A DNA stretch of 64,000 bases from Obelidium mucronatum (lineage: Eukaryota > Chytridiomycota > Chytridiomycetes > Chytridiales > Chytriomycetaceae), in contig JAIVFH010000026.1 in assembly GCA_025765595.1 (NCBI GenBank), positions 248,001-312,000 of the forward strand, given 5' to 3'. The notes beneath the pieces were generated by a model. The model was not told the DNA's origin. It made no database searches and worked only from the letters and a program-made list of their open reading frames with translations. This document shows positions 36,809 through 62,756 of this stretch, piece by piece. The first letter of the stretch is position 1. Each line of letters starts with the position of its first letter. Made by a program: the position numbers and the translations under genes.

Positions 36809-39013
36809 ATGAGGATTGAACCATCAAAGGAAACGGAGGAGTTGCTCAAGCAGCAGATTGATCGCGAACAAGCATTGCATATTGCGCAAAGCTCTGGATC
36901 GACTACTAGGCGGTCATGCATCAAATGGTCTGTCTTCGTAGGAGTCTGTGTGATGATTGCTGTTGTTGCAAGCCAAACCATCCCAAAGTTGTCTCCACTC
37001 TCCACTGGAACCCAATCTGCCTCGACCGCATCTGCGATTGCTGCCCCAACGTATTCCTGTAAATTCACTACCACGAAGCCTCCTTTGGATGGATCTCTTT
37101 CTGGAGCTTGGTTGAATGCCGAACAAACTTCTTCCTTCATCGACATTACTGGTACTGGGCCCACTCCGCGATACACTACAAATGCCATGATGCTCTGGGA
37201 TAACGAATACCTGTACATTGGAGCCCGTATCCAAGATCCGGATGTCTGGTCAAACATGAAAACGCGAAACTCCCCACTCTACCAGGAAAACAACTTTGAA
37301 TTCTTTATGGATCCGGAAAGCGATGGACTCAATTACTACGAACTCGAAATCAATGCATTGGGAACATCATGGCAATTGAGTTTGGATAAGCCATACAACC
37401 AAGGGGGATATGCCACAAACCCAAACGAAATTAGCGGGTTAATCAGTAATGTTCGCGTCCAGGGAACAGTGAATCGCGCATGGGATGTGGATCAAGGATG
37501 GACTGTTGAAATTGCTATTCCTTGGAGCGGAGTCTCTCGATTCTCCAGCAAACAAGGTGCTCCCAACAACGGAAACTCTATGCGGGTCCAATTCGCCAGA
37601 AGTCAGTGGGGATTCAATGTCGATGGAAACGGTAACTACGCAAAAACGAGCCAGAGTGATACCTGGGTTTGGGCGGGTATGAACGGACAAAGCACCATTC
37701 ATGACCCATCTTCGTGGGGTACTGTTTACTTTGTTGGCGGGCCCACTATCGACCCCCCTTCCATTCCGGCTGGGTTTAATTACGTTGGCTGTTATAACGA
37801 CGACAACAACAATCGTTTGGTCGCCAACCGTCTCTACACTTGGTATGAAATGACTGTTGAGGAATGTGGGCGTTTGGCCGTTGCAGCTGGATATACTATT
37901 TTTGGTCTGCAGTACAGATACGAGTGTTGGGGCGCCAACGTCCTGTCATATGCTCCAACGTCCGGGGATCGTTGTAACATGGTTTGTCAAGGAAACCCTC
38001 TCCAAATGTGTGGTGGAGCTGGCGGTCTGTCAATCTATTCGAACCAAAACCCAGTTCCAGTAGCCCAATCAGCCAAGCCGTCTTTGCCACCAGGATACAA
38101 ATACGTGGGATGTTATCAAGACGATAACAATAATCGTCTTGTGGTGAATCGTTTGACTACGTGGCTGGAAATGACTGTGGAACAGTGTGGGCAGGCGGCC
38201 GTCGCTGCTGGATACTCCATCTTTGGGCTTCAATACGAATATGAATGCTGGGGAGCAAACATGCTGTCATATGCGCCAAGCAACAGCGATCAATGCAACA
38301 TGCCTTGTCTCGGTAACCGTGGCCAAACTTGTGGTGGCAGTGGTGCGTTGTCGATTTACTCCAATTTGAACGAACTTCCTGTCAAGCAAGCAGAAGCACC
38401 TTCATTGCCATCCGGTTTCAAGTACGCCGATTGTTATCAAGATGACAACAATAACCGTCTTCTCTCCAACCGCCTCTACTCTCAATCTGGAATGACTGTC
38501 GGCATTTGTGGACAGCTCGCCGTTGCTGCTGGATACAGCGTCTTTGGTGTGGAATACGGGTCTGAATGTTGGGCTTCCAACTCTTTGTCTTATGCGCCCA
38601 CCTCCAGTAACCAATGTAACATGCGTTGCCAAGGAAACTACAATGAAATCTGTGGTGGCAGTGGAGCAGCTTTAGTATACTCAACTCAAATTCCAGTTCC
38701 TTTCAACACGCCACAAGTTCCGTCTGCTCCTAACGGATACCGTTACGTTGACTGTTACCAAGACAACAACGGAAACCGACTTCTTCAACACAGACTTACT
38801 CCAAAGTGGCGCATGTCGCTTGAATTGTGTGCGAGTTTGGCAGATCTTGGTGGATACACAGTCTTTGGAGTGGAGTATTCGTCAGAGTGTTGGGCAGACT
38901 ATGGGTTCAGTTATAGCCCGTCAGTGAGTGGAAGATGCAACATGCCGTGTGATGGCAAAAACGACCAAGTTTGTGGTGGAAGCGGCGCGTTGTCTGTTTT
39001 TGCAAAGAACTGA
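36809..39013 (+). CDS. Type II membrane protein: CBM9-like domain plus four WSC domains
   Basis: Single exon, 734 residues from the ATG at 36809. A short cytoplasmic N-terminus precedes one membrane segment (KWSVFVGVCVMIAVVASQ). The ectodomain has a CBM9-like sugar-binding fold (PPLDGSLSGAW, NEYLYIGARIQDPDVW, FFMDPESDGLNYYELEINALG, WTVEIAIPWSG, VQFARSQWG, DPSSWGTV), then four WSC domains of about 95 residues. Each WSC has Y(V/A)(G/D)CY.D(N/D)N.NRL, ..C...A..(A/L)GY..FG(L/V)(Q/E)Y..ECW, CNM.C.GN/D...CGG.G. Such proteins would bind cell-wall or environmental glycans. Paralogues at 39051 (no WSC) and 57038 (one WSC). Confidence 0.9.
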   Translation: MRIEPSKETEELLKQQIDREQALHIAQSSGSTTRRSCIKWSVFVGVCVMIAVVASQTIPKLSPLSTGTQSASTASAIAAPTYSCKFTTTKPPLDGSLSGAWLNAEQTSSFIDITGTGPTPRYTTNAMMLWDNEYLYIGARIQDPDVWSNMKTRNSPLYQENNFEFFMDPESDGLNYYELEINALGTSWQLSLDKPYNQGGYATNPNEISGLISNVRVQGTVNRAWDVDQGWTVEIAIPWSGVSRFSSKQGAPNNGNSMRVQFARSQWGFNVDGNGNYAKTSQSDTWVWAGMNGQSTIHDPSSWGTVYFVGGPTIDPPSIPAGFNYVGCYNDDNNNRLVANRLYTWYEMTVEECGRLAVAAGYTIFGLQYRYECWGANVLSYAPTSGDRCNMVCQGNPLQMCGGAGGLSIYSNQNPVPVAQSAKPSLPPGYKYVGCYQDDNNNRLVVNRLTTWLEMTVEQCGQAAVAAGYSIFGLQYEYECWGANMLSYAPSNSDQCNMPCLGNRGQTCGGSGALSIYSNLNELPVKQAEAPSLPSGFKYADCYQDDNNNRLLSNRLYSQSGMTVGICGQLAVAAGYSVFGVEYGSECWASNSLSYAPTSSNQCNMRCQGNYNEICGGSGAALVYSTQIPVPFNTPQVPSAPNGYRYVDCYQDNNGNRLLQHRLTPKWRMSLELCASLADLGGYTVFGVEYSSECWADYGFSYSPSVSGRCNMPCDGKNDQVCGGSGALSVFAKN

Positions 39014-39050
39014 TGAATTAAAAACCATTTCTTGTTGATTTCTTCCAATT

Positions 39051-40115
39051 ATGGACATTGATACCAAACCGTCCAAGATATTGGAAGAAGAGCCCCCTCC
39101 AACTGCGCTCCAGACTTTAAAGCAATCGCTTATCAAATTGTCTGTGTTTGTTGGAGTCTGTGTGGCGGTTGCTGTAGTTGCGAGCCAGACCATTCCAAAG
39201 TTGTCTCTCACGACCGAAACTCAATCCGCCTCGAAAGCCTCTGCGATTTCGTCGCCAATTTATTCCTGTCAATTCACTTCTACGAAGCCTCCTTTGGATG
39301 GAACTCTCAATGGACCTTGGGTGAACGCTACCCAAACAGCCTCCTTCATTGACATAACCGGCGATGGACCCACTCCTCGATACAATACAACTGCAATGAT
39401 GCTCTGGGATAATGAATACCTGTATATTGGAGCCCGTATCCAAGACCCGGATGTCTGGTCAAACATGCAAGGCAGAAACACCCCGCTCTACCAAGAAAAC
39501 AACTTTGAATTCTTTATGGATCCGGAAAGCGATGGACTCAATTACTACGAACTCGAAATCAATTCGTTGGGAACAACATGGCAATTGAGTTTGGATAAGC
39601 CATATAGTCAAGGAGGAGTTGCAACGAATCCAAGTGAAATAAATGGATTAATTAGCAAAGTTGGAATCCAAGGAACGCTAAACAAATCCGGAGACGTGGA
39701 TCAAGGATGGATTGTTGAAATTGCTGTTCCTTGGAGCGGCATCTCCCAATTCTCTGGTAAACAAGGCCCTCCAAATCATGGAAACTCTATGAGAGTTCAA
39801 TTCGCGAGAAGTCAGTGGGGATTCAATGTCGATGGAAAGGGTACCTATTCGAAAACGGGAAACAGTAGTTCTTGGGTTTGGGCAGGAATGAATGGGCAAA
39901 ATACCGTCCACGATCCGTCCTTGTGGGGAACTGTTGTTTTTGAACGCAATTCCGCAGGGACTGCTATTCCGTCCACGTCAGTAACTGTAACTGGTGGAGC
40001 TGGGAATGTCACAACCAATGTGGCAACTGTGTTGCCAGTAACCAGCGCCAAGTCAACGACACCTCGTACTATGATATTTAATCCCATATTACAACTGATC
40101 TTGTGTGCGATTTAA
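39051..40115 (+). CDS. CBM9-like membrane protein without WSC domains
   Basis: Paralogue of the preceding gene, starting 37 bp after its stop. N-terminal anchor (LIKLSVFVGVCVAVAVVASQ) and CBM9-like domain (NEYLYIGARIQDPDVW, FFMDPESDGLNYYELEIN, WIVEIAVPWSGI) are retained; many codons are identical, so the duplication is fairly recent. Instead of WSC repeats, it ends in a Thr/Val-rich stretch and a hydrophobic tail (IFNPILQLILCAI) that could be a second anchor. The very short spacer leaves almost no room for an independent promoter. Confidence 0.85.
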   Translation: MDIDTKPSKILEEEPPPTALQTLKQSLIKLSVFVGVCVAVAVVASQTIPKLSLTTETQSASKASAISSPIYSCQFTSTKPPLDGTLNGPWVNATQTASFIDITGDGPTPRYNTTAMMLWDNEYLYIGARIQDPDVWSNMQGRNTPLYQENNFEFFMDPESDGLNYYELEINSLGTTWQLSLDKPYSQGGVATNPSEINGLISKVGIQGTLNKSGDVDQGWIVEIAVPWSGISQFSGKQGPPNHGNSMRVQFARSQWGFNVDGKGTYSKTGNSSSWVWAGMNGQNTVHDPSLWGTVVFERNSAGTAIPSTSVTVTGGAGNVTTNVATVLPVTSAKSTTPRTMIFNPILQLILCAI

Positions 40116-50944: not shown

Positions 50945-52138
50945 ATGTCAACATCTACGGACCCCCACACCACCAATGCCAGCAACTCTGCACACACTTA
51001 TCTGCTTTCGGACTTTGTTCAGTTTCCTGTTGCTAGTATCAGCAAGCCATACGAGCCCGACTACACCGCAATGGATCAAAGCGAGGACATGTTGCAGTTA
51101 ATTATGGCTGAGACACAGTGGCCGGGACAAGGCACTCAATCTCTTACCAACAGTACCTTCCAAACACCTATGGTCACACCCATTCCATCCCCACTGCCGC
51201 TGAAGAGGTCACTAGAATCTATTCAAAGTTCCACACCAATGATGGCTTCTGCCCCAAACGGAATCATGATTCCGCAAGACCAAATGGATGTTTACAAATT
51301 CCTTCTTGAAACTTCGACGGGTTTTGGAAGTTTTAACCCATTGTCAGCTGAGGCACTGTTCCGCAGCCACAGCACATCTTCAACACCGGTCAACACTCCA
51401 ACTTTCTCCCAGCTTGAACCGCATTCACAGCATCCGCAAAATCAGTCTCAGAAGCAAAGACTCCTGTCAAACGCAACTCATCATAGATCTAGAAGCTTGG
51501 ATTCTGATTTCCTCTCTCTCGTCAGTCAACATCAAAAACCGAAGCGAAAACAGAATACAAGTAGACCCCAATCTACACCGAACTCTCTCTTGTCATCACA
51601 TTTATTCATGCCATCGGATCCCAATCTGTCCCAGATCATTCAAAAGTCATACAAATCGCAGCAACATCACAACTTAGCCCTCTTGAATTCCGCCAGTCAG
51701 AGTGCGCCGAGCACACCAGCATCCAAACTCCATTCATTTCTTCCCGTGTTTTCCAGATCTACCAAATGTACCAACAGTGGCAGCAGTAGTAGCAGTATCC
51801 GAGAGTATCAAGTCGAAACTTCAGCGGCTGGATCGAATCCCGCCACATCGTTTCAGCAACAACATACTTCGAAATGTTCAAACTGCAGCGTTACAAAGAC
51901 TCCAGTTTGGCGTCGTGATGGAACGAACGGAGCCGTGCTCTGCAATGCTTGTGGGCTCTACTTCAAGATGCACAAGAAGCACCGGCCTTTAGGGTTGAAG
52001 AAGGGAGCCAAGGATGATAAGACGGATATATTCTCTATTGAAGAGGATGGTAATGATAGGAAAAGAGTACGAATGGATCTCTCATTGGGATGCGATACCG
52101 TTGCAGAAGAAGAGGAATCCAGAGAGCAGGACTTATAA
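50945..52138 (+). CDS. GATA zinc-finger protein, canonical finger (array gene 1)
   Basis: Single exon, 397 residues. One GATA finger near residue 310: CSNC, then TPVWRRDG, then [11 protein letters not shown] (C-x2-C-x18-C-x2-C), followed by a basic [10 protein letters not shown] tail and a nuclear-localisation-like DRKRVRMD. The rest is Ser/Thr/Gln-rich, as in fungal activators. Around residue 110 lies [18 protein letters not shown], the DQ..Y.FL motif repeated in the five following genes. It is the longest and least modified member and probably the founder. Expected nuclear DNA-binding protein recognising GATA sites. Confidence 0.9.
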
Positions 52139-52419
52139 GAAGAAAAGAAACAGAAGTCGGCTGGGTGCGGAGATATCTAGTTAGAACTTACACGTAGAAA
52201 AATTAAACTGAAAACTTGTGAAAAGCAATACAACGTGAAACATTTGGAATTTCATTCGTTAACAGCCTCACCCCACCAAAATGTAGATTCCCTTACCGAA
52301 TAATTCCGTTAAAGAGAGAGGGGCAAGTGAATTTATCTTTGTTAACGCGCAAAGATCTTTGAAGCGGACTCTTTCAAATTCAAGCGGCGAATTATAATCC
52401 AGGCACCTTATCCTCCAGT

Positions 52420-52830
52420 TGCAGCAAAAGAGAAACGAGACGCAAAATCTGTGTTTCTTAACGACGCCGCTAGTACAACTGCCTTATCCGTGTCAAGTCA
52501 CTTCACTCTCCAATGTCCACAGACGCCTTTCATCCAGTGCACTTCAAAACCGACCACGGTATTGCATTCTTCTTTCCTTTACTCTAAAACTCCAGAATCA
52601 CTTGATCGCTCGGTGTAACAGATTCTCTATCCGGCAGCGTCGCATGCGTTTCGAAAGCAGAGACAACAGCAAAAAATAGTACGGAGCAAGTTACGTCGCA
52701 ACTGTAGCAAACCTCTGAGTCCTCTCGTAAGATGTGTCACAATTGTTGGAGATGCACAAGGGAATCAGATATGGGTTGCACCTGAAGACGCATGGAATGA
52801 ATCGACTTAACCGGGGGCTAAAATGTAGTG
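52420..52830 (+). pseudogene. Possible decayed GATA-array copy
   Basis: In the 975-bp gap between array genes 1 and 2, a + strand frame reads KMCHNCWRC at about 52731, followed by degenerate sequence whose bases around 52790 (CCTGAAGACGCATGG) resemble the Trp-Arg-Arg codons of array gene 2. Upstream, an open stretch from about 52425 is Ser/Thr/Pro-rich like the linkers of the array. Stops interrupt the frame. This looks like the remnant of a further array member, but the match is short. Confidence 0.35.
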
Positions 52831-53113
52831 TTAGTACAACTTTCCTGACAAAGACAGGTTTTCATAAGATAGTCTTGGAGAATTGGAGGTTAAATCATAT
52901 ATGTCTTTTCGACTGCACAATAAAATCCATTTTGATGGTGCTTTCTTTTTTTTCAAGGGTTCAGAGGTTCGAAAATTTCCCTGCCGCAAAAAATTCCGTT
53001 TGAAGAGCGTGATTGATTTGGATGAAATTTTACGCTTTCTTTTTTAAAAAAAGAACTCCATTAGACTCTTGTATTTGCACTTCTTGCAGATATCAAGATT
53101 GTTGTTTACAAGA

Positions 53114-53741
53114 ATGTCACTGATTCTATGCCACCCGCACCACTCAACACAAGAACATATCCGCGTCGCTTCCAACGGACACCACATCGAACAAGATCAA
53201 TATGAAGCATACGAATACTTAGTGGAAGTTTCCACGTATTTTGGACAAAGCAAGTCCACAACTTATCAAGAAGAAGTTGCTGGGGCTTATTCTACTTCCG
53301 TAAACTCAACCCCAGCCGCTACGAGACAACCAACCCCTGAAGTTTGTCGGTTGGACACGGTGCCATTCACCGAGAATGTTTTGTCGTCAGTGAACAGATC
53401 TGGCACGTCCAGCATAGACCAAAAAGTCCAACCAGTGTGCTTCAATTCTTTGCTAGCCGAGGCGGAAGAGCAAAAAAAGGCTAAAAACAATTCAAGCAAT
53501 CAACGCAATACCGAGGGACTCTTGGATTTCGAATTGAAGGAAAGTTCCAAGCGAAGACGAACAAATGTGTTTCCAGTGCGGAATCACCAAAACTCCCGTC
53601 TGGAGACGCGATGCAGAACGTCGCAGATTGTGTAACTCGTGTGGTCTTTATAGAAAATTAACGGGATTGAAACGTCCTGTAGAACTAAATCGCGGAACGC
53701 AACAACGTAGAAAGCGTGGAATAGAAAAAGCAAAAAATTAA
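53114..53741 (+). CDS. Short GATA zinc-finger protein (array gene 2)
   Basis: ATG at 53114 (MSLILCHPHH), the DQ motif EQDQYEAYEYLVEVSTYFG, a Ser/Thr-rich linker, then a canonical finger at the end: [16 protein letters not shown], then LCNSCGLYRKL (C-x2-C-x17-C-x2-C) and a basic tail NRGTQQRRKRGIEKAKN. N- and C-terminal parts lie in different frames. A 103-bp intron (about 53437-53539, GTGCTT...TGAAG) would join them into 174 residues; otherwise there is a one-base shift at about 53564. Finger intact, including the Trp. Smaller than gene 1. Confidence 0.75.
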
Positions 53742-54070
53742 GAATAGATAATAAAATACATATTACTTTTTAAAACAAGTCGTTAACAGTGGATGTAATT
53801 ATTACCAATAGAACACTTGTATTCGCAACACGCAAGCGGAAAATTAGACAACAGCCAAGAAAATTTAGTGAACGAACCCTTCAATTTGTTTCAAACAGTG
53901 TTTCAGCCATGTTTCAGAACTTATTTTTGAAGTGGCAGCTAGGAAAAGAATCATTTTCAACATAGAACCGCTCATTAAAATGAAATTTAAATACTCAAAA
54001 AGCTATAAGAAGTAGTGCGGTCAAGGAGAAGAGTGGGGTAACTGCTATCTAGTGTCAATTCTTACAAATA

Positions 54071-54531
54071 ATGCCTCATACGCCACTTCAAGTTGTCCAC
54101 AACGACCAAAGAGAAATATATGAGTTCCTTTTGGAGGCGGCAAGTTGCCTAACTTCTCGAGCGGGTCGCAGTCCATCACCAACTCCATCGCTATACCACC
54201 AGTCCTCGAATGGGAGCTACCACGATATTCAAACCCGAGATAAGCAGCAGTTATTTTTGGACTTGGCCGGCAACTTCTACCATTCATCTCAATCTGCGTC
54301 ATCAGCCAATCTTCTTTGCCTTCACCGATTGAGCCTTTGATTGAAAGTTGTGGAACTCGAACTCCTTCCGTTTGCAGAAGAAATGCGGCTGGGGGAGTCA
54401 TCTGTGACTCGTGCTCCATTTTCCTCAAGTCAAAAGGACTAACAAACACCATGGAACTGAAACGTGGAATGGTCTCAAAGCTTCGACGAAAGGCTACTGG
54501 TGCTCAAGTGGACAAGTTTCAACCATACTAG
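54071..54531 (+). CDS. GATA-derived protein with re-wired finger (array gene 3)
   Basis: MPHTPLQVVHNDQREIYEFLLEAASCL carries the DQ motif directly at the N-terminus. A 56-bp intron (54250-54305, GTTATT...TCATCAG) joins DKQ to HQSSLPSPIEP, giving 134 residues. The finger reads ESCGTRTPSVCRRN, then ICDSCSIFLKSKG: C-x7-C-x9-C-x2-C. Compared with array genes 1 and 2, the first Cys is replaced and the invariant Trp has become Cys, while the Cys2-to-Cys3 spacing of 17 is unchanged. Basic tail KRGMVSKLRRK. Four Cys remain, so zinc binding is plausible, but canonical GATA recognition is doubtful. Confidence 0.75.
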
Positions 54532-54924
54532 AAGGAGAGAGGGCTGCGACGGAATAACTCGATAGAAGAAAGCCAAAGAAAAATATTTAGACATTAAAAT
54601 TAAAGCATTAGTACAATTTTTGATGATGGTCATTCCGTATTGATGTTACAAGCTACAATCCGATAATCCGATTATCGCTTTTACGTATATTGTGTTGCAA
54701 AAATTCATTTTCGCAGTGAGCACGTCACCGCCTCAAATTAGAATCACAAGGAAATTTTACCTGAACGATCAACAGAGATTTGAGGTTGAAGATCTCTTGT
54801 AAAAAAAGTCTTGGAAAGAGAGACATGCTGCTGGACCAAACCTGCCCCTTCTTCGAATATTCCAGCCCTCCTCAAACACCGAATATGCATCCTTCCATCG
54901 TCAATTGCGTACAACCACCACCGC

Positions 54925-55338
54925 ATGATAGCTATAATCCCTGAAGATCAACGAGACGTGTATGCCTTTCTAGTCGAGACGGCAAACTGCTTCGTAAACA
55001 ACAGGGATCTAAGTCCTGAGAAATCTGTATCTCCTACTTTTGGCCCCATGGCCACTGATTTGGTTTCTCTGGTCTTCGATTCTTTCATTCTACCATCAGC
55101 GAAGGATCATTTGCCAATCACACCGATTATTCCTTCTTCACGTCCGGCGGGATGCGGAACCAATACACGTTCAATTTGTCGTTGGAGTGTTTCCGGAGGA
55201 AAGACATGTCCTCCTTGTTCCTTTTATCTGCAGGCGAAAGGAATCAAAAGCCGCTGGTCGGGTCGAGGCTCAGTGAGTAGAATCAGGCGCTTGAAAAAGG
55301 AGGAACGGGCAAGGCTTAAAAGTAAACAACAGCATTAG
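54925..55338 (+). CDS. GATA-derived protein with re-wired finger (array gene 4)
   Basis: Single exon, 137 residues from ATG at 54925, chosen because MIAIIPEDQRDVYAFLVETANCF then begins like the other array members; the frame is open further upstream to 54811. Finger AGCGTNTRSICRWS, then TCPPCSFYLQAKG: C-x7-C-x9-C-x2-C, with Cys at the former Trp position and no first Cys. The tail is GRGSVSRIRRLKKEERARLK, nearly shared with genes 5 and 6. The middle contains LPITPIIPSS, also found in gene 5 as APIIPSS. Function unknown, probably nuclear. Confidence 0.75.
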   Translation: MIAIIPEDQRDVYAFLVETANCFVNNRDLSPEKSVSPTFGPMATDLVSLVFDSFILPSAKDHLPITPIIPSSRPAGCGTNTRSICRWSVSGGKTCPPCSFYLQAKGIKSRWSGRGSVSRIRRLKKEERARLKSKQQH

Positions 55339-55619
55339 AACATACCAGCACGTGAATAAAAATCATAGAAGCATTTATCTTCTTATTTTCAGCACGACTC
55401 GTTTACGTATCGCAATATCAAAATATAACATGAGGGGGCACCTTCCAGAAATCTAACAATATGAAAATTTTACCAATTTCAACAAATCGAAAAACTCTAA
55501 ATAACGTTTCAAGTTCCAGTTTGAGTTGACTCCAAGGCTTTTTTGATATAAATATCATTTACTTTTCTTGGCTGGTTTTAGAGTTGTCATTCATTATTAT
55601 TTTCTTTGATAAACAAGCA

Positions 55620-56236
55620 ATGATGAGGATTGAAGCCCCGCTTACCCTGCTTCAGCCAATCAATCCATTCTCGATGAGTCAATTGGATCAAATTGATGCA
55701 TACGGATTCCCTACTAGAAACTTGTTCGTCAACAAGGCCTATCGATGGCTCAAAACGACTTCCCTCTATTGAACGAGCTGCTCTTTGATACTCCTGCCTT
55801 CAACTCAACAAATGGCCTGTATTTCTCTGGAATGTATTCCGGAGAATTCCTGTTTACTCCGACTGCACTGATGACAATGATGCTACCTTCGCCATTGGAA
55901 ATGATACACTCTTTTGATTCACTCTTACAAATACCCGCCGAAGCTTCTTTATCTTTACCAATGGCGCCAATCATTCCGTCTTCACCACCATCCCAGAAAA
56001 CACTGGTATCCCACCAAAAAGCCGAGAACGATACATTTCCCTGGTGCGGAACAACGACACCATCGATTTGCCGATTAAATATGTCCGGTGGTAAAATCTG
56101 TACTTCCTGCTCAGTATACTTGCAATCTAAAGGGATCTCTAAACGTTGGGAGGGGAGAGGATCTGTGAGTCGATTAAGACGGGTTAAGAAGGAAGAAAGG
56201 CGAGATGAAAGGAGTAAACGAAAGGACATTAAATAA
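55620..56236 (+). CDS. GATA-derived protein with re-wired finger (array gene 5)
   Basis: ATG at 55620 (MMRIEAPLTLLQ). The DQ motif is partly degraded: LDQIDAYGFPTRNLF. A 50-bp intron (55728-55777, GTCAAC...AACGAG) connects it in frame to LLFDTPAFNS, giving 188 residues. The finger WCGTTTPSICRLNMSGGK, then ICTSCSVYLQSKG is C-x7-C-x9-C-x2-C with the same Trp-to-Cys change. Tail RGSVSRLRRVKKEERRDER. If the intron is not used, a 163-residue protein could start at 55745 and would lack the DQ motif. Confidence 0.7.
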
Positions 56237-56424
56237 ATTTATAGACAAATGATAATTTACTTGCGATTTCGAATTCAACCCTATGCGTTTTTGTGGTTCA
56301 AAGAGTGTGCACGAAGTCTTGGAAGCCTCAAATGGAATTTTTGATGATTCCAAGAATCTGGAACATCATAAATTGAACCGGCCAAGAGGACATCATTAGT
56401 AAGTCGACTTCAAATCAACTGCAA

Positions 56425-56847
56425 ATGATGATTTCTTTAAAAGAAGTACCTCGTGATCAAAAACAGGCCTATGAATTCCTCCTGAGCGTTGCTCATTCCC
56501 TTCACGCTGTTTGCGAGCCACATTTGACTGGTACTCCAAGCGCAAGCCCCGCTTTAGCTGCACGCCCAACGGAGTCAGCGATTTCAGCACATTATGACCT
56601 TGACTGTTTTGTGCCTGGAATTGAAGGGAAATCAGTGCTAGGAATCACGCCTTCACGTTGTGGGAGTACTACAATACCAATTTGTCGTTGGTCTGCCAAA
56701 GGATCATATTCACAACGTAAAATATGCGAAACCTGTGAGAATTACTTAAAGAAGAAATGCGTGCCCAGACGTTTGGAGCTAACTCGGGGCAGTGTGTCTC
56801 GATATCGAAGAAGGATGAAGGTGGAGAGGGAGAATCGAATAAAATAG
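56425..56847 (+). CDS. GATA-derived protein with re-wired finger (array gene 6)
   Basis: Single exon, 140 residues. Starts MMISLKEVPRDQKQAYEFLLSVAHSL, with the DQ motif at the N-terminus, then a Pro/Ala/Ser-rich linker. Finger RCGSTTIPICRWSAKGS, then KICETCENYLKKKC, with spacing C-x7-C-x13-C-x2-C: four residues are inserted relative to genes 3-5. Tail LTRGSVSRYRRRMKVEREN. Last member of the same-strand array; the next gene (CBM9/WSC) is on the opposite strand and convergent. Confidence 0.75.
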   Translation: MMISLKEVPRDQKQAYEFLLSVAHSLHAVCEPHLTGTPSASPALAARPTESAISAHYDLDCFVPGIEGKSVLGITPSRCGSTTIPICRWSAKGSYSQRKICETCENYLKKKCVPRRLELTRGSVSRYRRRMKVERENRIK

Positions 56848-57037: not shown

Positions 57038-58309
57038 TTAGTTTTTTGCAAACACAGACAACGCGCCATTTCCTCCGCAAATTTGGCTTGTCTTTCCATC
57101 ACAAGACATATTACAACTTTTGCTCGAAACAGCATGGTTGTTGCCGAATTTAATGTCCGCCCAACACTCTGACGAATACTCCACGCCAAAAATCGTGTAC
57201 CCGGCGAGAGTCGCCAAACTGGCGCACAACTCAAGGGACATGCCACCCTTTCCACTAAGCTTATTTCGAAGAAGCCGCTTTTCATTGCTGTCTTGGTAAC
57301 AGTCGACGTAACGATATCCTTTGAGGGAAGGGGTGGGTCGTCCAACAAACCTAACCATTCCCCACGACGATGGATCGTGAACTGTGCTTTGTCCATTCAT
57401 ACTAGCCCACACCCACGCATCACTCTGGCTTGTTTTAGCGTAATTTCCATTTCCATCGATTGTGAGTCCCCATTGACTTCTAGCGAACTGAACTCTTACG
57501 GAGTCACCGTTATTGGGCGCACCTTGTTTGCTAGAGAATCGCGAGACTCCAGCCCAAGGTATAGCAAGTTCAACTGCCCATCCTCGATCAACATCACCAG
57601 GTCGATTCAAAGTTCCTTTCACTCGAACTTTACTGATTAACCCGCTAATTTCATTTGGACTTGTTGCGTGACCTACTTGGTTGTACGGCTTATCCAAACT
57701 CAATTGCCATGTTGTTCCTAATGCGTTGATTTCGAATTCATAATAGTTGAGCCCATCGCTTTCCGGGTCCAAAAAAACTTCAAAGTTGTTTTCCAGGTAG
57801 AGTGGGGAGTTTCGCGTTTTCATGTTCGCCCACACATCAGGGTCTTGTAAACGGGCTCCAATATACAAATATTGATTGTCCCAGAGCATCATCGCAGTAG
57901 TAGTGTATCGTGGAGTGGGGCCATTACCAGTGATATCAATGAAAGTTGATGTTGACGCAGCGTTAGACCAAGGTCCAGACAGGGATCCATCCAAAGGAGG
58001 TTTCTTGGAAGTGAATTTGCAGGAATAAGTAGGAGCGGAAAGTAATTGGGCATTTGAGGCAGATTGAGACCCAACTCCTGGAATAACCAAACAGACTCCA
58101 ACAAACACAGACCACTTGATACGCGACTGCCCAGTAGTCGACTTCCGAATCCTTTGAGAACCAGCCGATGTCTGTTCGCGCTCAATAAGCTGATTGAGCA
58201 TGATGTCAGTTTCGTTTGAGCAATTTAATTGCAGATGCTTCTTGTTCCACTCACGATTTACAGCAATTAACTTATTCCGCGACACCCCCATGTGAACTAG
58301 CCTAGCCAA
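57038..58309 (-). CDS. Type II membrane protein: CBM9-like domain plus one WSC domain
   Basis: Third member of the 36809/39051 family. Anchor RIKWSVFVGVCLVIPGVGSQ, then the CBM9-like part (NQYLYIGARLQDPDVW, FLDPESDGLNYYEFEIN, WAVELAIPWAGV, VQFARSQWG) and a single WSC domain (YRYVDCYQDSNEKRLL ... MSLELCASLATLAGYTIFGVEYSSECWAD ... CGGNGALSVFAKN). That WSC is closest to the fourth WSC of the 36809 gene. The ATG at 58309 gives a longer cytoplasmic N-terminus than the paralogues; NETDIMLNQLIEREQ aligns with ETEELLKQQIDREQ, so an alternative 5' exon is possible. Single exon otherwise. Confidence 0.85.
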   Translation of the reverse strand: MARLVHMGVSRNKLIAVNREWNKKHLQLNCSNETDIMLNQLIEREQTSAGSQRIRKSTTGQSRIKWSVFVGVCLVIPGVGSQSASNAQLLSAPTYSCKFTSKKPPLDGSLSGPWSNAASTSTFIDITGNGPTPRYTTTAMMLWDNQYLYIGARLQDPDVWANMKTRNSPLYLENNFEVFLDPESDGLNYYEFEINALGTTWQLSLDKPYNQVGHATSPNEISGLISKVRVKGTLNRPGDVDRGWAVELAIPWAGVSRFSSKQGAPNNGDSVRVQFARSQWGLTIDGNGNYAKTSQSDAWVWASMNGQSTVHDPSSWGMVRFVGRPTPSLKGYRYVDCYQDSNEKRLLRNKLSGKGGMSLELCASLATLAGYTIFGVEYSSECWADIKFGNNHAVSSKSCNMSCDGKTSQICGGNGALSVFAKN

Positions 58310-61787: not shown

Positions 61788-62756
61788 TTACGCAAAGTCC
61801 GCGTCACTATCTGAATCCACATCTTGAGCATGACTCACGGCCACAACAACCGCCGCTGCACCAGCACCAGGCGAAGACCGCTTTCTCTTTTTAACTTGCA
61901 CTGCATTCGGGTCCTTCACTCTCGCTCTCCGTCTCTGCACAGCCGTTCCCCCCACCTTAACAACTCTATGAACCCCATTCATGCGAAAGTAAACTCCACA
62001 AGCGTTACACACTCTGTTCCCGCTCAAATCCCGACGCCACATTGGCGTTACGCTTGTTTGGCAGTTGATGCACGTGTGTACTTTGGGCGCCAGTTGTTTG
62101 TTTGGTGATGTTGATGATGATGAAAGCGAGGATTCGTGGGCTGGCGGTGGAGATTGCATTTCAGTGACAGTGATTGGGGACGGTGACATTGCTGGAGAGT
62201 GTCTTGCTGTTACTGTACAGCTTGGTGAGATTGGTGGTGGTGTTGATGTGACTGTAGATGCCGAAGGAGTGCGATGTTGTGATGGTGGTGATGATAAGTC
62301 ATGATGAGTGATATGGTGGTTGTGGTGGTGGTTGTGGTTGAGGGGTGAAATGTCCGCCATCGAAGGCATCCCGCAACCAGCGGCATCCAGGAACTGAAAC
62401 AGTTCTTGTGTCTGTTGTTGTTGTAGAAGCTGTTGTTGTTGTTGCTGTAGCTGTCTGGCAGCGATCATGAGTTGGTTTTGGGCTGCTTGTAACTGTTCGA
62501 ATCCAGAGGTGAAGGGGAAGGCAAACTCGTTCATGAGCATTGCTGAAGGGTGGAGGAAGAAGAAGGAGGGCAGGTCACTGGACGTTGTGGCGGTGGCTGA
62601 AGAGCCACTGCCGGCAGGGGTAGTGTTGAACAGCAGCTGTTGCTGCTGTACCTGTTCAGTCTTTATCGTTGGCTGCAGACAGGGACTGGACAGTGCCGCT
62701 GGTGGAGCTGGGTTCAAAAAGTCCCACAGTGAGTCCGAGTGTTCGTTTGCAAACAT
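61788..62756 (-). CDS. GATA zinc-finger transcription factor
   Basis: Single exon, 322 residues. Finger near residue 230: TCINCQTSVTPMWRRD, then RVCNACGVYFRMNGVHR (C-x2-C-x17-C-x2-C), then a basic region RRRARVK and KKRKRS. N-terminal half has a Gln-run and a His-rich stretch (NHNHHHNHHITHHD), with Ser/Thr/Pro-rich linkers. TQELFQFLDAAG at about residue 115 resembles the Y.FL helix of the 51-57 kb array. Ends with acidic DSDSDADFA. Lies 5 kb beyond the array on the other strand; it is not one of its tandem copies but may be a distant paralogue. Confidence 0.9.
   Translation of the reverse strand: MFANEHSDSLWDFLNPAPPAALSSPCLQPTIKTEQVQQQQLLFNTTPAGSGSSATATTSSDLPSFFFLHPSAMLMNEFAFPFTSGFEQLQAAQNQLMIAARQLQQQQQQLLQQQQTQELFQFLDAAGCGMPSMADISPLNHNHHHNHHITHHDLSSPPSQHRTPSASTVTSTPPPISPSCTVTARHSPAMSPSPITVTEMQSPPPAHESSLSSSSTSPNKQLAPKVHTCINCQTSVTPMWRRDLSGNRVCNACGVYFRMNGVHRVVKVGGTAVQRRRARVKDPNAVQVKKRKRSSPGAGAAAVVVAVSHAQDVDSDSDADFA

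Follow-up and report, generated by a model that had tools for sequence, protein, structure and literature searches.

The closest described relatives of the genes considered here are the fungal single-finger GATA factors (AreA type, PF00320), in which one finger with four Cys (C4) is accompanied on its C-terminal side by a basic tail, and the MED, END and ELT-X factors of nematodes, which the accessible part of the published account describes as lineage-specific duplicates of small, divergent, fast-evolving single-finger GATA genes that are in part linked (PMC7712238). Here we describe a tandem array of six GATA-derived genes (genes 1-6, 50945-56847, plus strand) in the chytrid Obelidium mucronatum (Chytridiomycetes, Chytriomycetaceae; assembly of 48.3 Mb in 694 contigs). 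The array lies in a window of 64,000 nucleotides, the whole stretch of DNA analysed, which is C26:248001-312000 on the forward strand, C26 being contig JAIVFH010000026.1; positions given without a contig are those of the window. Genes 1 and 2 share the AreA-type plan fully; unlike AreA-type factors, the array has an added N-terminal module, fingers in genes 3-6 that are without their first Cys and their Trp, and a tandem arrangement. What it shares with the nematode genes is that small, divergent GATA factors, in part linked, have been duplicated in a single lineage, but neither an N-terminal module nor a finger with Trp changed to Cys is mentioned in that part of the nematode account (PMC7712238). 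Lineage-specific GATA duplication is thus already known, and it is the module together with the Trp-to-Cys finger that is new relative to the nematode case. No publication on this array was found in the matching literature, which was covered in part.

The reading we favour, quite possible if somewhat short of probable, is that the array belongs to a lineage-specific subfamily of chytrid GATA proteins united by a docking module, and that its mini members would have ceased to read GATA and would instead modify the full-size members. The main argument for it is the contrast between an invariant module and variable finger residues: among 12 Obelidium representatives the D, Q, Y and L of the module are kept in 12/12, whereas the first Cys of the finger is kept in 8/12, and the Trp and the Asn that follows the third Cys in 7/12 each, which argues that what these genes share is the module and not GATA reading.

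The N-terminal module

All six loci have the same layout of a DQ...Y module, a variable linker and a C-terminal GATA-like finger, and the six plus-strand loci that the initial annotation had proposed, in each of which a Cys finger comes after a DQ...Y motif, are indeed all present. Its description of six consecutive genes holds for the loci, but in the window the module and finger of genes 2, 3 and 5 are in different frames. Gene 1 (50945-52138) encodes a GATA factor of 397 residues, with the module at 51248-51337 (DQ at 51278), placed by motif position, profile and module alignment, and a canonical finger at 51875-51952. Gene 2 (53114-53741) has its DQ at 53195 and a canonical C4 finger at 53568-53642, in frames that differ in the window; the gene is open in a second copy of the array (copy A, C26:180.5-186.5 kb). 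The frames likewise differ in gene 3 (54071-54531; DQ at 54104, altered finger at 54349-54414), which in copy A is an open reading frame (ORF) of 157 codons. Gene 4 (54850-55338) has its DQ at 54946, an altered finger at 55153-55218 and a predicted basic C-terminal helix, with a leader changed by a 1-bp insertion near 54931. In gene 5 (55620-56236; DQ at 55686, altered finger at 56045-56110) insertions near 55708 and 55741 disrupt the module, and the gene is open in copy A and in a further copy on C338; the segment 'LDQIDAYGFP' originally read here is a frameshift product of the 1-bp insertion near 55708, and the C338 copy reads LDQIDAYGFLLE (GFLLE). Gene 6 (56425-56847) is an ORF of 140 residues with DQ at 56455 and an altered finger at 56659-56736.

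The D, Q, Y and L of the module are invariant in 13/13 representatives (the 12 from Obelidium and one from Physocladia obscura, P0007), and in 9/13 the sequence A(S/P/A)(N/D)G stands upstream of the module helix; in most members a turn ASNG leads into a helix DQ...YEFLL. In the AlphaFold2 model of P0007, strands are predicted at residues 4-6 and 12-14 and a helix at 15-32 (predicted local distance difference test, pLDDT, by block 89, 96 and 90), and in that of gene 4, taken from the window ORF starting at the ATG just 5' of the module, a helix is predicted at residues 7-25 (block pLDDT 82, 92 and 71). The predicted template modelling score is low (0.27) in both models, as expected for two small parts joined by a disordered linker. 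The shared helix of the initial annotation is thus recovered as an N-terminal helix in gene 4, but the conserved piece looks larger, being a hairpin plus helix in the Physocladia model. The impression that the N-terminal segment belongs to no known family has held up, in that neither Pfam nor the PDB yielded a relative: a search of Pfam with 13 module members gave no match at E<=5, and the best matches among PDB sequences (E 1.3 and 0.8) are regarded as chance. Fold searches matched at the finger and barely probed the other parts, so the module may still have a known fold. We also considered whether the module is the remnant of a second GATA finger and rejected this, as the probability was 0.1% when the 13-row module alignment was compared with nine fingers as profiles.

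Activation helices that bind KIX domains are amphipathic and follow the pattern phi-x-x-phi-phi, according to the accessible part of PMC3936767. The V/I-Y-x-F-L pattern of most modules fits phi-x-x-phi-phi, and the predicted module helix resembles KIX-docking helices to that extent, a common pattern and hence a weak likeness to those of that source (PMC3936767). Unlike them, the module has an invariant polar DQ, which speaks for a contact more specific than the KIX type. No match to PF16987 or PF02172 (KIX) was detected at E<=1 in the genome, searched in six frames exon by exon and therefore blind to introns, a search in which no named control passed the cut-off.

Alteration of the finger

The pattern C-x2-C-x17-20-C-x2-C, by which GATA-type factors are defined in the abstract of PMC5693882, served as our test of membership. 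Gene 1 (spacing 18) and gene 2 (spacing 17) have this pattern, the latter having the only canonical C4 finger among genes 2-6, and genes 3-6 do not, the first Cys being gone in 4/4. A Cys stands in place of the conserved Trp in all four, so that four Cys remain in the arrangement C-x7-C-x9-C-x2-C, with x13 in gene 6. Relative to the curated cut-off of PF00320 (26.8 bits), genes 1 and 2 score above (53.9 bits and, in copy A, 43.8 bits) and genes 3 and 5 below (16.4 and 12.4 bits), genes 4 and 6 being unlisted at E<=1. On these sequence grounds genes 1 and 2 are predicted GATA-type members, and genes 3-6 are descendants that are not members by finger pattern. The residue after the third Cys is Asn in genes 1 and 2 and D, P, T and E in genes 3-6; this Asn, and the Leu or Tyr after the fourth Cys, we take from GATA-1 to be DNA recognition residues.

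Common GATA descent of the array, as first proposed, is supported by finger columns shared across a 12-protein alignment, by a finger tree (18 rows, 54 columns, most other forks open) and by weak fold matches of gene 4. In the tree genes 3-6 form one clade (support 99/99) within which gene 3 branches first (inner support 91/85), an order that fits stepwise duplication along the array. The progressive alteration noted at the outset is accordingly visible as a finger change that tracks gene order, from gene 1 (canonical) through gene 2 (canonical but short) to gene 3 as the first branch of the altered clade.

These altered fingers could instead be DNA binders of new specificity, holding zinc through the Cys that replaces Trp and reading a new site with the help of the basic tail. 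All four genes do retain four Cys, the spacing of 17 between the second and third Cys of the canonical pattern is kept in genes 3-5, and a basic tail, RG.VS(R/K).RR, is common to genes 3-6 and is joined in the gene 4 model by a C-terminal helix. The 13 best Foldseek matches of that model are all GATA fingers, if weak ones (E 0.34-1.2), and divergent, fast-duplicating single-finger GATA factors do exist in nematodes, as far as the accessible account goes (PMC7712238). However, the finger part of the gene 4 model reaches a block pLDDT of only 60-77, and the residues taken above to be those of GATA-1 recognition are changed in genes 3-6; we consider new specificity unlikely.

Distribution of the module

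A profile of the six module segments matched six more GATA-type genes (m1-m6) and their copies, with E from 2e-7 to 0.006 among 2771 six-frame ORFs of the regions read. These module-bearing genes lie on the minus strand at C26:315069-321981, outside the window and 10-17 kb downstream of the array; the fingers of m5 and m6 are canonical, and m2 has lost the finger Trp and is unlisted for PF00320 at E<=1. The expression DQ...Y.[FY]L occurs in 36 of the 2771 ORFs (0.05 expected in shuffled ORFs), all at loci of this family and representing copies of 12 genes. Since the regions read had been selected for GATA genes, the meaningful figure is that there are zero motif matches in the other 2735 ORFs. 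The finger pattern is also present in 32 of the 36; the remaining four are two frame-broken pieces from the window, the copy of gene 6 with one Cys missing and an ORF near a contig end. In similarity searches with the N-terminal part of gene 1, two module segments, P0007, gene 4 and gene 6 as queries, module matches were confined to C26, C102 and C338; weak matches on C16, C74, C679 and C154 miss the module core, and a separate GATA cluster on C51 and C334 has no module. Across the whole genome PF00320 has 69 matches, a number that includes several copies of one locus.

Among 265 candidates from a protein database, a profile of module plus finger retrieved seven proteins, six from Obelidium and one, P0007, from Physocladia obscura, in a search that depends on shared exact words of five residues and so cannot establish absence in other species. 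P0007 reads ASNGAPVPIDQQSPYEFLL followed by a canonical GATA finger whose model matches AreA and GATA-3 structures, and its finger groups with that of Obelidium m5 (91/97), under the program's mark for firm support. The combination of module and GATA finger is therefore not confined to Obelidium, although a single protein is thin evidence. Absence of the motif from related species would have counted against the initial annotation, and with this one protein of another genus the check came out in its favour, to the extent that it was possible. In two respects the initial picture changes. The motif does mark the six-gene array but is not peculiar to it, being found in m1-m6 and in the Physocladia protein as well, and a founding role of gene 1 for the motif is not supported, given the six other genes that carry it and the grouping of the Physocladia finger with m5.

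One of the six Obelidium records, P0002 (BDR26DRAFT_801917), is without the module. This deposited model splices the finger of gene 1 to that of gene 2 and omits both modules; it relates to 51608-53741 of the window, with a copy at C26:183.6-185.9 kb, and may be a gene-calling fusion or a genuine two-finger transcript.

Copies of the region and frame breaks

The region is present twice on C26 in inverted orientation (145-194 kb versus 291-330 kb), with five main blocks (2.7-18 kb, identity 90-97%), and further partial copies are found on C338 and C102. The repetition may reflect haplotypes, a misjoin in the assembly or a genuine inverted duplication. Genes 2-5 are each a single intronless open frame in copy A, as are genes 4-6 in C338; in the window copy, genes 1 and 6 are open, and gene 4 is open across module and finger, its 1-bp insertion just 5' of the module altering the leader relative to both other copies. 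Because the other copies are open without introns, introns are not needed as the cause of the broken frames and were set aside. Between copy A and C338, both of the two indels inside the frames of genes 4-6 are multiples of three (21 and 9 bases), compared with 1/7 spacer indels; the 21-base indel deletes two candidate ATGs of gene 5.

It is close to an even question whether the frame breaks, which concern the window copy only, are assembly indels, the six genes being intact in the organism. The window copy of the array has six private 1-bp insertions alongside 35 private substitutions, versus seven alongside 196 in the neighbouring array (Fisher p = 0.011), and this excess suggests assembly indels; the C338 copy of gene 4 is moreover identical across 134 codons and lacks the extra upstream base. 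Against this, gene 1 has no indel in 1194 bp, and the differences between gene 3 and copy A, of 7, 10 and 2 bases, are unlike base-calling errors and do not fit such an origin.

Selection on the mini genes

With the neutral expectation taken from the kinds of substitution seen in the spacers, and genes 2 and 3 compared as pieces with shifted stretches left out, genes 2-6 pooled have 54 nonsynonymous among 94 changes, where a fraction of 0.732 is expected (p = 7e-4, omega 0.49). This suggests, if weakly, that genes 2-6 together are under purifying selection at the protein level. Singly, p is 0.042 for gene 3, 0.036 for gene 4 (nonsynonymous 3/8 changes), 0.090 for gene 6, 0.135 for gene 2 and 0.157 for gene 5, with 0.041 for gene 1. 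As genes 4-6 can be compared between three copy pairs, there are 27 pooled choices, over which omega ranges from 0.38 to 0.63 and p from 1.4e-5 to 0.054, with 26/27 below 0.05. In the array formed by m1-m6, nonsynonymous and synonymous changes number 1 and 4 in the module (120 codons), 6 and 22 in the finger (293 codons) and 94 and 80 in the rest (1042 codons); the finger differs from the rest (p = 0.002), and for the module (p = 0.19) the changes are too few. Judged against the module counts of genes 1, 4, 5 and 6 given below, the array of genes 1-6 is under less constraint than this sister array, and parts are being lost from some of its copies.

A number of observations weigh against a conserved modifying role for the mini genes. 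The weakest of the 27 choices stands at p = 0.054, and gene 6 compared between copy A and the window looks neutral (omega 0.91). The module of genes 1, 4, 5 and 6 has 8 nonsynonymous and 5 synonymous changes in 80 codons, mostly in gene 5, and is not tighter than the rest; moreover, the representatives behind the invariance counts were chosen as intact copies. GATA sites 5' of the six genes are not in excess (9 found, 9.05 expected), which also speaks against cross-regulation. Genes 2, 3 and 5 are frame-broken in the window, in copy A the gene 5 module carries an F-to-S change and gene 6 has lost its third Cys to S, and gene 4 was unmatched at E<=1 among 12 candidate deposited proteins, so that even a deposited gene 4 copy was missing.

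The breaks, the copy A substitutions and the absence of gene 4 among the deposited proteins matched, together with an omega of about 0.5 and the three single-gene values above 0.05, would also fit decaying tandem duplicates, in which function is kept by gene 1 and perhaps by gene 2, and genes 3-6 are under relaxed selection and heading towards pseudogenes, different copies losing different parts. The weaker constraint and the loss of parts keep this alternative alive, and we regard it as credible if somewhat unlikely: it sits poorly with the pooled constraint and the result for gene 4 alone, with the frames that are open in copy A and C338, and with a basic tail kept through genes 3-6.

Neighbouring and parallel loci

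Short, aberrant GATA-type ORFs also form another tandem cluster, at C51:163041-173731 and on C334. This cluster has a short N-terminal motif of its own, LP(S/P)(I/F/L)..(L/F)(L/F), and holds 10 of the 14 ORFs with this pattern among the 2771. In the window, the array is flanked by paralogous CBM9_1 proteins (36809-40115, plus strand, and 57038-58291, minus strand), 2/3 of which also carry WSC domains. A protein of 322 residues with a canonical GATA finger (51.3 bits) and without the DQ...Y.FL module is encoded at 61788-62756 (minus strand), between both module-bearing arrays.

Proposed role of the array

MicroProtein-type inhibitors provide the concept of small inhibitory paralogues. Genes 3-6 are similar in being small paralogues that may retain an interaction part and lose DNA reading; they differ in retaining a Cys-rich finger remnant and a basic tail. 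We hypothesize that docking by the module is always to the same partner, which could be a co-regulator or a sister protein, and that the finger would supply the DNA target. Members with a canonical finger (gene 1, and m5 and m6 downstream) would act as ordinary GATA factors. Genes 3-6, which keep the module and are without the finger residues presumably used for GATA reading, would compete for or redirect the shared partner, binding DNA poorly or differently. It is tempting to speculate further, on what we consider rather improbable ground, that the family is a two-part kit of a new hairpin-helix docking module and a finger free to change, in which the finger of genes 3-6 was remodelled about a Cys newly placed at the former Trp position, making them small trans-acting modifiers that compete through the module, the C51/C334 cluster being an independent case.

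If the favoured reading is true, this would be a transcription factor family in which an interaction module, and not the DNA-binding domain, forms the conserved core. Gene 1, gene 2, gene 3 and genes 4-6 would then form a natural series of stepwise finger change within one tandem array, and how a full-size factor gives rise to small trans-acting regulators would be directly testable in an early-diverging fungal lineage.

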